NCBI GenBank assembly: GCA_947446925.1
Contig: CANFHU010000008.1
Span: 52,220 to 116,219 of the forward strand
Reading direction: 5' to 3'
From: Flavobacteriia bacterium
GTDB taxonomy: Bacteria > Bacteroidota > Bacteroidia > Flavobacteriales_D > Crocinitomicaceae
Length of the DNA: 64,000 bases
The notes beneath the pieces are model-generated. The model searched no databases, had not been told where the DNA came from, and saw only the letters and a list, made by a program, of their open reading frames with translations. Below are positions 69 through 62,597 of this stretch, one piece after another (position 1 is the stretch's first letter; each line of letters begins with the position of its first letter). The position numbers were made by a program, and so were the translations under genes.

Positions 69-731
69 TTAATCAAAATTATGAGCGACAAATGATTTAG
101 ACATTAAAAAGAATCTTTCACGCCAAATTTTACTTTTTGGAAATAATTTTTTAAAATCGTTATATGAAGGCAATAATATTTCATCAATGTATTGTCGAGC
201 GAATTCTTTATCCCATTTTTTACCTCTACTTAATATTGTCTTAGTAAGAATGAAAAATTGAATGTTTTTTGGTAGGAGATTTATTATAGGCAACAAATAA
301 TGAGGTTCTATAAAAAAAAATTTATTTGGTACCTGAACATAATAATTACATCCAACTCTTTGAACTTCTTTAGCCATTTTCACTTGATTTTCTCGAGTTG
401 TCAAATGTTCAATTACTGAATTCGAAAAAGTAATATCAAATTCATTATCAGAAAATTCAGAAAGGTCTACTGCATTTCCAATGATTGAAATGATATTTGT
501 GCTCGTAACATTAAATTTTTCTAAATTTAACACAGTAATTTCATAGTCTGGATTGGATGCTAATGTTGAGTTTTTCCAAAAATGTTCGTTTCCTCCTATA
601 TCTAGAATACGAATTGGTTTAGGTAAATTTTTTATTTTCTCCTTAAAAAAAATCATTCGTTTTTGCCGAAACTGATTACCTAAAGATTGATTTGATGTAG
701 AATCACCAAAAAGAAAAGATTTCAAATTCAT
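69..731 (-). CDS. class I SAM-dependent methyltransferase
   Basis: ORF with IRILDIGGNEHFW motif and DITFSNSVIEHL; start trimmed to the internal Met (MNLKSFLFG). Confidence 0.75.
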   Translation of the reverse strand: MNLKSFLFGDSTSNQSLGNQFRQKRMIFFKEKIKNLPKPIRILDIGGNEHFWKNSTLASNPDYEITVLNLEKFNVTSTNIISIIGNAVDLSEFSDNEFDITFSNSVIEHLTTRENQVKMAKEVQRVGCNYYVQVPNKFFFIEPHYLLPIINLLPKNIQFFILTKTILSRGKKWDKEFARQYIDEILLPSYNDFKKLFPKSKIWRERFFLMSKSFVAHNFD

Positions 732-33915: not shown

Positions 33916-35373
33916 ATGAAATACAACTATACTATTCCTACAGAAAAACGCATCGAACGATTGCATTATGAAAATCCTTGGTGGAATACTGGAGAAATAC
34001 AATCTACTTATAAAAGTATGAATAAACGTTTGTATTTTGATGTGTTTTATCCTTACGTGAAAGAAACGGAAATAAAAAGAGCATTGGTATTAATGGGGCC
34101 AAGACGTGTAGGGAAAACTGTGATGATGTTTCATGCGATTGAGCAATTGTTAGTTGAAAAGGTATCTAAAAAGCAAATTTTTTTTGTTGGAATTGATAAT
34201 CCAATCTATATGCACTTAAGTTTGGAAGATATTATACTTCTAGCAAAACAAGCAGTTGGTATTTCAAGTTTAGAAGGATGTTTTATTTTTTTAGATGAAA
34301 TTCAATATTTAAAAGATTGGGAGCGACATTTAAAAGTCTTGGTGGACTTATATCCTAGTACTAAGTTTATTGTTTCAGGTTCTGCTGCAGCAGCGTTGAA
34401 ATTACAAAGTTCGGAGAGTGGTGCAGGTAGATTTACAGATTTTATGTTACCTCCGTTGACTTTTCAAGAATATATACACCTTAAAGGATTGAATCATTTA
34501 ATTGATAATCAGACGATAATATACAATGAAAAAGATATTGAGATTAAAGGTACCCACGATATCAAAACCTTAAACAAAGAATTTTTTACATATTTAAATT
34601 TTGGTGGGTATCCCGAAGTTGTTTTTTCGGAAAAAATACAGAGTGATATGGGTCGGTATGTGAAAAGCGATATTGTAGATAAAGTATTATTAAGGGACTT
34701 GCCAAGTTTGTATGGGATAAAAGATGTACAAGAATTAAATAGTTTTTTTAGTTATTTAGCCTATAATTCGGGGAATGAATTTTCGTTTGATAAACTTTCA
34801 AAAGACAGTGGAATTATCAAAGAAATATTGAAAAAATACCTAACCTATTTAGAGGCTGCCTTTTTAATAAAAGTGATTAATAAAGTGGATGATAATGCTA
34901 AGAAATTCAAACGTGTAACAACTTTTAAAGTGTATTTAACCAATCCATCACTTCGTACAGCACTTTTTTCACCTATCCAAGAAATTGATCAAGAGACGGG
35001 TAATTTGGTCGAAACAGCTATTTTTTCGCAGTGGATGCATCGCGAAAAATTGGATTTAAAATATGCGAGTTGGAAAATGGGACGATCGGAAGGTGAAGTT
35101 GATATCGTGTTGATTGATAAAAAGTTATTTAAGCCAAGTTGGTGTGTAGAAGTTAAATGGAGTAATCGTTATTTTGATAAACCTAAAGAGTTGACAAGTC
35201 TTACACATTTTTGCACGCAAAATAAATTGTCTGCTTCTTTAGTTACGACCATAGATAAGCAAGGAAATGCTAGTGTAGGGGATATACATTTAACGTTTCT
35301 ACCAGCTTCCGTTTATGCATATAATATTGGAGTTATCACCTTGATGAAAAAATCTAATTGGATGCAGGATTAG
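33916..35373 (+). CDS. AAA-type ATP-binding protein, DUF4143 family (intact)
   Basis: RALVLMGPRRVGKTVMMFHAI, CFIFLDEIQYLKDWERHLK, FIVSGSAAAAL, wHTH-like middle, VDIVLIDKK...CVEVKWS. Confidence 0.9.
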   Translation: MKYNYTIPTEKRIERLHYENPWWNTGEIQSTYKSMNKRLYFDVFYPYVKETEIKRALVLMGPRRVGKTVMMFHAIEQLLVEKVSKKQIFFVGIDNPIYMHLSLEDIILLAKQAVGISSLEGCFIFLDEIQYLKDWERHLKVLVDLYPSTKFIVSGSAAAALKLQSSESGAGRFTDFMLPPLTFQEYIHLKGLNHLIDNQTIIYNEKDIEIKGTHDIKTLNKEFFTYLNFGGYPEVVFSEKIQSDMGRYVKSDIVDKVLLRDLPSLYGIKDVQELNSFFSYLAYNSGNEFSFDKLSKDSGIIKEILKKYLTYLEAAFLIKVINKVDDNAKKFKRVTTFKVYLTNPSLRTALFSPIQEIDQETGNLVETAIFSQWMHREKLDLKYASWKMGRSEGEVDIVLIDKKLFKPSWCVEVKWSNRYFDKPKELTSLTHFCTQNKLSASLVTTIDKQGNASVGDIHLTFLPASVYAYNIGVITLMKKSNWMQD

Positions 35374-58383: not shown

Positions 58384-58510
58384 GATTCCAAAAAGATTAG
58401 TGAGGTGAATTGAACTAAATATACGTTATATTTTCAATTAATGGAAGTTAATTTCCAGAATATTTGTGGATTAAACGAAATGGAATTTTGTGTGTTTATT
58501 TCTTTGGTTA

Positions 58511-58607
58511 AAACTGCTAGAAACGTAAAAAAATTAGGCAAGGTATTTCAAGTAGAAATAAGGTTGTAAAAGGAAGTGTATAGGTTAAAAATCCCAAATA
58601 ACTTGGG
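58511..58607. repeat. dispersed hairpin repeat, copy 1 (diverged)
   Basis: AAACTGCTAGAAACGTAAAA...GTAGAAATAAGG...ATAGGTTAAAAATCCC. Confidence 0.6.
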
Positions 58608-58830: not shown

Positions 58831-58890
58831 AAGGTAAAATCCTGTACGGAGCGAAAAAAAGCTCCGGATTACAAATCCAGATGAGCGAGG
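58831..58890. repeat. dispersed hairpin repeat, copy 2
   Basis: AAGGTAAAATCCTGTACGGAGCG then GCTCCGGATTACAAATCCAGATGAGCGAG. Confidence 0.65.
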
Positions 58891-59250: not shown

Positions 59251-59559
59251 CTAAAACTCAATAGAAAGTTTTAGATGACCTCCCAAGCCTTTTTCAATAA
59301 TACGTAATAAGGTCGATAAACGAATATCACTCGCATCATTTTCAATACGCGAAATGTATGCCTTGTTGGTACCACAACGCAATGCTAATTCCTCTTGGGT
59401 GATTTGTTTCTTTTTTCGTTCTTCTTGAATAAGAACACCAAGTTTAAATGTTTCATACTCGGTAGTGAATACATCTCTTGAAGAAGTGCCTTTTTTGCCA
59501 TATCGTTTGTCTAAATGATCATCAAACGTTGTGATGGCTGTTGAATTTGTTGTTTTCAT
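59251..59559 (-). CDS. HigA-like XRE antitoxin
   Basis: FKLGVLIQEERKKKQITQEELALRCGTNKAYISRIENDASDIRLSTLLRIIEKGLGGHLKLSI. Confidence 0.88.
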   Translation of the reverse strand: MKTTNSTAITTFDDHLDKRYGKKGTSSRDVFTTEYETFKLGVLIQEERKKKQITQEELALRCGTNKAYISRIENDASDIRLSTLLRIIEKGLGGHLKLSIEF

Positions 59560-59720: not shown

Positions 59721-59820
59721 AAACTGCTAGAAACGTAAAACAAGGAAGAAAGGCATTTCGCGTAGAAATACGATGGGGAAAAAAGCTCCGGATTATAAAT
59801 CCAGAGGAGTGAGGGGGAAC
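59721..59820. repeat. dispersed hairpin repeat, copy 3 (full)
   Basis: AAACTGCTAGAAACGTAAAACAAG...GGCATTTCGCGTAGAAATACGATGGGG...GCTCCGGATTATAAATCCAGAGGAGTGAG. Confidence 0.8.
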
Positions 59821-59867: not shown

Positions 59868-59976
59868 TAAGTATCAAATCACCAAATAACACACATATTC
59901 GGTAATTTAAATCACTAAAATATATATATAATTGGTGATTATAATCACTAAAAATATAGTATATTTGGTGATTATG
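59868..59976 (+). promoter_or_regulatory. 33-bp phased inverted-repeat array ending on the start codon of the DUF4143 ATPase
   Basis: Centres at ~59875.5, 59908.5, 59941.5, 59974.5; best unit GGTGATTATAATCACT. Confidence 0.7.
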
Positions 59977-61100
59977 ATTAATAGAGCGTTATTTCAAAAA
60001 CTAATCGAAAAGTTTAATAAAGGCAAAGCGATTGTATTATTAGGTCCGAGACAAGTAGGAAAAACTACGTTAATAAACACATGTTTAGAAGGACAAGATT
60101 TTTTATTTCTAAATGGAGATGATCCAGAAATACGAAATTTATTAGAAAATGCTGGGGTTTCTAAATTACGTTTAATTATCGGGAAAAACACACTCATTTT
60201 CATCGATGAAGCTCAAAGAATAAAAGACATTGGACTTATTGCTAAAATGATTATTGATCAATTTAAAGAAGTACAATTAATAGTAAGTGGCTCTTCTGCA
60301 TTAGAAATCAATCAATCCACCCAAGAACCTTTAACAGGAAGAAAGTTTGAATACCAGTTATTTCCGATCAGTTGGGAAGAATTTGAAAATCATGTAGGAT
60401 ATGTAGAAGCAAACACGCAACTGGAAGAACGCCTCATATACGGAATGTATCCGGATGTGCTAAATAACAGATCGGAGGCAGGTGAAATTTTAAAGCAACT
60501 TACTACAAGTTATTTATATAAAGATGTACTATCCATTACAGGTATCAAAAAACCGGAATTATTGGATAAACTTTTAAAAGCTTTAGCCTTACAAATCGGA
60601 AGTGAAGTATCCTACAATGAATTAGCTAATCTCTTACAGATAGACAAAACGACTGTTTCTAAATACATCGATTTATTGGAGAAAGCTTACATTGTGTTCC
60701 GACTAAACAGTTATAGCAGAAATCAACGCAATGAAATCAAAAACAATCGTAAAATCTATTTTTATGATAACGGGATACGAAATATGATAATCAACAACCT
60801 TAACCCTTTAGAATTGAGAACAGACAAAGGAGCACTCTGGGAAAACTTTTTAATCTCTGAACGGTTAAAACTACAACAATACAATCAACTGTATACTAAC
60901 AATTATTTCTGGCGAACAGTTGAAAACAAGAAGTTGATTTTGTAGAGGAAACAAACGGACAAGTTACTGCTTACGAATTTAAATGGAATAGCAAAGGAAA
61001 AGCTAAAATTCCAGCAGTATTTTTAAATCAGTACAGTGCAAATGGTAAAATTATTGACAAAGAAAATTTTAGAGAGTTTGTAAGAAATGACACCATGTAA
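59974..61100 (+). pseudogene. AAA-type ATP-binding protein, DUF4143 family, frameshifted near C-terminus
   Basis: GKAIVLLGPRQVGKTTLINTCLEG ... ENFLISERLKLQQYNQLYTNNYFWRT; frame lost ~60915-60930 and resumes as QEVDFVEETNGQVTAYEFKWNSKGKAKIPAVFLNQYSANGKIIDKENFREFVRNDTM*. Confidence 0.85.
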
Positions 61101-61355
61101 GTCCGCTCTCTATTTTCATTTTCAACTGTTAAAATTTAAATGTAATCAGCAGTCCAGCAATTCTGGAGGTGTAGGTTCTACTTTATCTCTTTGTGGAGGT
61201 AATTTATCCAACGATAAATAAGGTGCAATTTGTCCCATATATCTAATATAAGTACCAAAAATACAAATAACGGTACGTTTAATAGGTTTTAACTAATTTT
61301 TAGTTTCACAAAATTAAGGTAAAGCTTGAAAAATAAAAAGCGTACAATTAATTTC

Positions 61356-61411
61356 ACGTAGAAATACGATGGGGAAAAAGAAGCTCCGGATTACAAATCC
61401 AGAGGAGCGAG
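61356..61411. repeat. dispersed hairpin repeat, copy 4 (5' truncated)
   Basis: CACGTAGAAATACGATGGGGAAAAAGAAGCTCCGGATTACAAATCCAGAGGAGCGAG. Confidence 0.8.
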
Positions 61412-62454: not shown

Positions 62455-62500
62455 AGTTCTTTTACCAAAAGATTGCATATACTTTCATTAGTTAAAATTA

Positions 62501-62597
62501 TAACCACTAGAAACGTAAAACAAGTAGCAAAGGCATTTCGCGTAGAAATACGGTGGGGGAAAGACAGTTTACAGGTTGAAAATCCTGCACAGCGGGG
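62501..62597. repeat. dispersed hairpin repeat, copy 5
   Basis: CACTAGAAACGTAAAACAAGTAGCAAAGGCATTTCGCGTAGAAATACGGTGGGGG...CAGGTTGAAAATCCTGCACAGCGGGG. Confidence 0.75.

Follow-up and report, generated by a model that had tools for sequence, protein, structure and literature searches.

The ATPase gene at 59974-60945 of the window (the 64,000-nucleotide stretch of a Flavobacteriia bacterium genome analyzed here) is preceded by a phased array of inverted half-sites, and arrays of nearly the same period and of unlike sequence are found upstream of most of its close homologs, where they are tied to a promoter box and covary with a residue of the predicted recognition helix. From these sequence comparisons, we consider it likely that each ATPase binds the array at its own promoter cooperatively and autoregulates, most likely by repression, the array serving as a private operator. 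The preliminary description of this locus, which had read the leader as a phased multi-site operator, possibly for the DUF4143 ATPase bound through its winged helix-turn-helix (wHTH) segment, is thus supported, whereas its idea of a protein that wraps or oligomerizes on the leader is conjectural.

The letters and coordinates first given for 59868-59976 were confirmed from the sequence. The members of each half-site series are exactly 33 bp apart, as had been described, with AATCAC at 59877, 59910 and 59943 and GGTRATT at 59901, 59934 and 59967, and the array does reach the ATPase start codon, since its last half-site directly adjoins the ATG (59974). The features of the locus are as follows.

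59877-59973, no strand: putative phased operator array, roughly three units of 33 bp with inverted half-sites AATCACY ... GGTRATT, based on sequence, 33-bp periodicity and uniqueness in the genome
59877-59883, minus strand: half-site AATCACC, first of its series, kept in orthologs L004 and L005 and absent in L003, L208 and L213
59901-59907, plus strand: half-site GGTAATT, with one mismatch to the others
59910-59916, minus strand: half-site AATCACT
59934-59940: half-site GGTGATT, left half of the palindrome
59943-59949: half-site AATCACT, right half of the palindrome
59935-59948, no strand: perfect palindrome GTGATTATAATCAC, formed by the two preceding half-sites
59960-59967, plus strand: putative Bacteroidota -7 promoter box TATATTTG (TAnnTTTG), based on family-wide enrichment of the box
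59967-59973, plus strand: last half-site GGTGATT, which overlaps the -7 box at its end and is conserved in orthologs of other genera
59974-60945, plus strand: AAA_14 and DUF4143 ATPase of the PDC-S01 family, based on Pfam and alignments; the frame ends about 50 residues before those of orthologs
60613-60690, plus strand: predicted helix-turn-helix of the ATPase with recognition helix IDKTTVSKYIDLL, based on a structure model and covariation; Thr at the equivalent of residue 226 of homolog L153

The best self-alignment lag of the array is 33, none of 5000 dinucleotide shuffles reached the periodicity seen in the window, and among the 59 window ORFs tested the leader periodicity is specific to the ATPase gene (0/58 others score as high). 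A chance repeat was rejected on these results together with the rate among unrelated neighboring genes, 22/340 of which score as arrays when an array is called as a periodic upstream region at z of at least 4. Some of these 22 positives share the 32-33 bp period and may belong to neighbors that are read in the opposite direction from the same array. In the 3.15 Mb genome, GTGATTNNAATCAC has a single exact match, which is the palindrome site, and GGTGATT-N26-GGTGATT occurs without mismatch only at the window array; a search for a regulon elsewhere in this genome found no second array with the window sequence.

The perfect palindrome emphasized in the preliminary description is present in the window but is not conserved. 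Orthologs carry GTGATTACAATCAC, GTGATTACATTCTC or GTGATTACATCCTC in its place, the left half being conserved and the right half variable, and the palindrome was therefore rejected as an essential element. Three elements stay constant across orthologs, namely the spacing, the TATATTTG box and the half-sites nearest the promoter; orthologs, including those of other genera, retain CTAAAAATATAGTATATTTGGTGATTATG or a near-identical form. Similarly, the 33-bp spacing is exact in the window while the number of units differs between relatives. Within arrays, half-sites are only slightly above spacers in unit-to-unit identity, a difference too weak to be counted here as evidence of selection on the half-sites.

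Homologs without a periodic leader or with unconserved spacing had been named as evidence that would speak against an operator, and the family gave the opposite outcome. The survey covered 280 distinct family genes, drawn at the level of genus, family and phylum and from named genomes, and the window subfamily was defined by a profile score of at least 400 bits (n = 194 distinct genes). Upstream arrays were called in 143/194 subfamily genes versus 11/184 downstream regions. Of these arrays, 120 have a period of 32 bp and 19 one of 33 bp (139/143 arrays); 51/194 genes had no detectable array. Beyond Bacteroidota, 32-33 bp arrays precede subfamily members of Coxiellaceae, Delongbacteria, Saccharibacteria, Verrucomicrobia, Termititenax and Anaerolineaceae, and arrays were also seen on plasmid pTS1 of Treponema saccharophilum and on a contig classed as viral, with none at a Desulfosarcina plasmid member. 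Unit sequences are unlike between genes, and even paralogs of one genome carry arrays with different letters. Many of the 25 family matches in the window's genome have upstream arrays of other letters. Such strong lineage-specific expansions (genomes G264, G261, G262, G271 and G000) reach 32 matches in a Verrucomicrobia genome and 18 each in Delongbacteria, Termititenax and Scalindua.

More distant subfamilies have array periods of 22-23, 31-34, 38, 40, 42-44 or 52-53 bp, or no array. Other PDC-S01-like subfamilies (L038, L060, L025, L035 and L058) carry upstream arrays of 22-23 bp, i.e. two turns, with unrelated sequences. Periods of 22-23, 31-34, 42-44 and 52-53 bp fit helical phasing and those of 29, 38 and 40 bp do not, so phasing was rejected for the wider family and is claimed here solely for the 32-33 bp subfamily. 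The window contains one more, distant gene of the DUF4143 family (34054-35058, G000:C8:86273-87277; 488 aa), which lacks a convincing array (z 2.5). No array was found in a small clade whose Walker A motif is degenerate (GTRGVQKFE; L033, L055, L065, L024 and L013), and given this clade, the array and ATPase activity may be linked.

TAnnTTTG is the -7 box of Bacteroidota promoters. Among Bacteroidota array genes, 110/137 have this box no more than 75 nt from the start codon, in most cases where the array ends on its 3′ side, compared with 12.5 ± 3.3 in shuffles and 11 in the preceding 75 nt. No clear -33 box was seen at the usual distance from the -7 box of the window. The unit nearest the promoter overlaps the stretch from -33 to -7 in most Bacteroidota genes. 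The arrays thus show two properties of an operator, a spacing close to an integral number of helical turns (139/143) and overlap with the gene's own promoter (110/137), and since the sites extend over the promoter as far as the -7 box, a bound protein would most likely repress. The same binder could have the opposite sign, with the ATPase on its array activating its own transcription in a positive-feedback switch. This reading, which we judge unlikely, draws on the same covariation with residue 226 as evidence of binding, and in Delongbacteria gene L343 the last half-site is located just upstream of a -35-like TTGACA rather than over the core promoter. On the other hand, the position of the promoter-proximal unit in most Bacteroidota genes, and of the window half-site over the -7 box, is what a repressor predicts.

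The variable unit number and the small excess of half-site over spacer identity would also suit an RNA-level element or a neutral minisatellite without function. However, arrays that differ in sequence share the 32-33 bp period, the array covaries with residue 226, and an array located upstream of the -7 box, and hence of the predicted transcription start, should not be transcribed. RNA hairpins were judged unlikely for this reason, and we regard an RNA-level or neutral origin as barely credible.

The window protein matches Pfam AAA_14 (99.4 bits) and DUF4143 (113.6 bits) above the gathering score and has the Walker A motif GxxxxGKT as LLGPRQVGKTTLI. The PADLOC PDC-S01 model PDLC04789 is matched by homolog L153 from Salegentibacter agarivorans (E 4.5e-169) and by L004, a 96%-identical ortholog of the window protein (E 3.5e-165); the window protein, itself shortened, is assigned to PDC-S01 through these two. 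Relative to orthologs, a one-base deletion near 60921 (60919-60945) ends the window frame before the nuclease catalytic motif D...ExK (D322, E335, K337), as judged from alignments, stops in the read-through match and the missing motif, which is conserved in the family and in orthologs. The deletion could be either real pseudogenization or an assembly error. The ATPase domain, helix-turn-helix and operator array of the window copy are intact.

In the AlphaFold model of L153 (mean pLDDT 92.6), an ATPase domain, a helix-turn-helix with helices 194-206, 214-221 and 225-237, and a C-terminal domain are predicted. The wHTH-like segment named previously (SYNELANLLQIDKTTVSKYIDLLEKAY) corresponds to this modeled helix-turn-helix, and the C-terminal domain with its conserved D322, E335 and K337 fits a PD-(D/E)XK nuclease in the model.

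Covariation between array and protein was assessed in 100 non-redundant genes by correlating the similarity of arrays with residue identity in each protein column, overall identity having been removed. Column 226, at the start of the winged-helix recognition helix, was the best of 344 (r 0.262), followed by 318 (0.170), 224 (0.165), 339 and 229, with 225 also high; for the helix-turn-helix window 214-237, none of 2000 permutations matched the observed covariation. In a second scoring based on the base 5′ of a GA[A/T]T core, column 226 ranked first of 311 (z 8.3) and column 225 second. Because every column shares the one phylogeny, the ranking serves as an internal control, though not as a full phylogenetic model. 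Genes with Lys226 have G 5′ of the core in 25/37 cases (GGA[A/T]T) and T in 11/37 (gene-level majority), Asn226 goes with T in 24/28 genes (TGA[A/T]T) and Gln226 with C in 5/11 (CGA[A/T]T). By eye, Ser224-Lys-Asn pairs with TGACG. No clear base preference was seen for Glu226 and several other residues, and the three Thr226 genes scored have no common base; the window combines Thr with TGATT half-sites. Outside Bacteroidota, examples from Coxiellaceae, Delongbacteria, Verrucomicrobia, Saccharibacteria and Termititenax obey the code, with some examples undecided. There is thus a partial code between residue 226 and the half-site, and the earlier proposal of the DUF4143 ATPase itself as the candidate binder gains support from it.

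These data also bear on the possibility that the arrays are bound by another host regulator. An HTH gene is the first upstream neighbor in the window, and we infer binding by the ATPase from sequence. Nevertheless, array letters differ between paralogs of one genome and track the recognition helix of each gene's own product, and orthologs have differing neighbors, which makes another regulator very improbable. The covariation of columns 316-318 and 339 of the nuclease domain (L153 numbering) with the array is nearly as strong as that of the recognition helix, and a second DNA contact through these residues is possible. Together with the PD-(D/E)XK-like domain itself, this covariation could instead mean that the array is chiefly a substrate, either a nuclease target or the ends or recombination sites of a mobile unit, with transcription secondary. 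The gene block lies in a shuffling region, and family members occur on plasmids and on a virus-classed contig, as a mobile unit would allow. Against this stands the finding that arrays lie on one side of the gene only and are tied to the promoter box, and that the block borders in relatives are REP-like elements and not the array, so that we hold a substrate role to be quite improbable.

A REP-like element of approximately 50-60 bp (GTAGAAATACGATGGGGAAAAAAGCTCCGGATTATAAATCCAGAGGAG) is found between small gene blocks of the window at 58508-58564, 58850-58889, 59755-59816, 61351-61411 and 62481-62562. The blocks are in a different order in relatives G003, G001 and G011 (loci L300-L302), which indicates a shuffling, cassette-like region. 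In the flanks of these three relatives it is the REP-like elements that bound the gene block, and transposon ends were rejected as an explanation of the array. The HTH gene (59251-59559) resembles an orphan antitoxin; its counterparts in L300-L302 follow a small HigB/RelE-like gene (e.g. L300:10464-10823, reversed locus) that is missing in the window.

In the mechanism that we propose for autorepression, the ATPase, consisting of AAA+, winged helix-turn-helix and PD-(D/E)XK nuclease domains, would read the half-sites with its own recognition helix, and one dimer would occupy each unit of two inverted half-sites. Because 32-33 bp corresponds to approximately three helical turns, successive dimers would be placed on one face of the DNA and could assemble through their AAA+ domains. 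Repression would keep a potentially harmful ATPase-nuclease scarce until some signal lifts it, and a separate site sequence for each gene would insulate the many paralogs of one genome from each other.

PDC-S01 is a PADLOC phage-defense candidate (bioRxiv 10.1101/2024.01.29.577857, as cited in PMC12988326) in which an ATPase is fused to PD-(D/E)XK, and one survey ranks it as the fourth most common defense across prokaryotes, with validation pending for most candidates of this kind (PMC12988326). In a rumen survey it was the most frequent individual locus (PMC13356809). Close homologs of the window protein match its model and share the ATPase and PD-(D/E)XK domains, whereas the truncated window copy lacks the catalytic motif. 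In the openly licensed literature searched, we found no description of arrays, an operator or autoregulation for DUF4143/PDC-S01, and no DNA target or mechanism for PDC-S01.

A search of solved structures by sequence gave weak hits only. The best structural matches of the model are the archaeal ATPases SSO1545 (2fna, E 3.4e-9) and PABY2304 (2qen, E 4.3e-8), with TM-scores of about 0.5, but identity is 16% and the domain arrangement superposes poorly (rmsd 6.5-7.3); we know of no operator arrays for either protein. RuvB and Orc1/Cdc6 are structurally more distant from the model than 2fna and 2qen. Orc1/Cdc6 initiators are AAA+ winged-helix proteins that bind origin repeats, and iteron-binding Rep proteins, also winged-helix, autoregulate at repeats in their own promoters. 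Both serve as a working analogy of winged-helix proteins on repeated sites, from which the family differs by its nuclease domain. An Orc/Cdc6-like fold does not extend over the whole chain (TM-score 0.28 with 2qby), which ends in a C-terminal nuclease-like domain instead, and with up to 32 unlike copies per genome the arrays would not be origins. Regulators of toxin-antitoxin and defense operons shut a harmful gene via an operator over its own promoter. They provide a second working analogy, with the differences that here effector and repressor are presumably one polypeptide and that the operator is a fixed-period array unlike for each paralog.

A further scenario, which we offer tentatively and consider rather unlikely, is that PDC-S01 is a single-gene switch combining effector, sensor and repressor in one molecule, in which ATP-dependent assembly on the array silences the nuclease, an infection event releases and arms it, and the fast-changing array acts as a "password" that lets dozens of paralogs coexist without cross-talk.

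PDC-S01 is counted among the most abundant candidate defense genes of bacteria and archaea (PMC12988326). A gene-specific operator that tracks the recognition helix would provide a DNA ligand for each protein of this family together with a partial winged-helix recognition code. Proteins and arrays together would also form a large natural collection of protein-operator pairs that are distinct from one another, and each may offer a way to ask whether the ATPase cycle controls assembly on DNA, as well as a reporter for the inducing signal.
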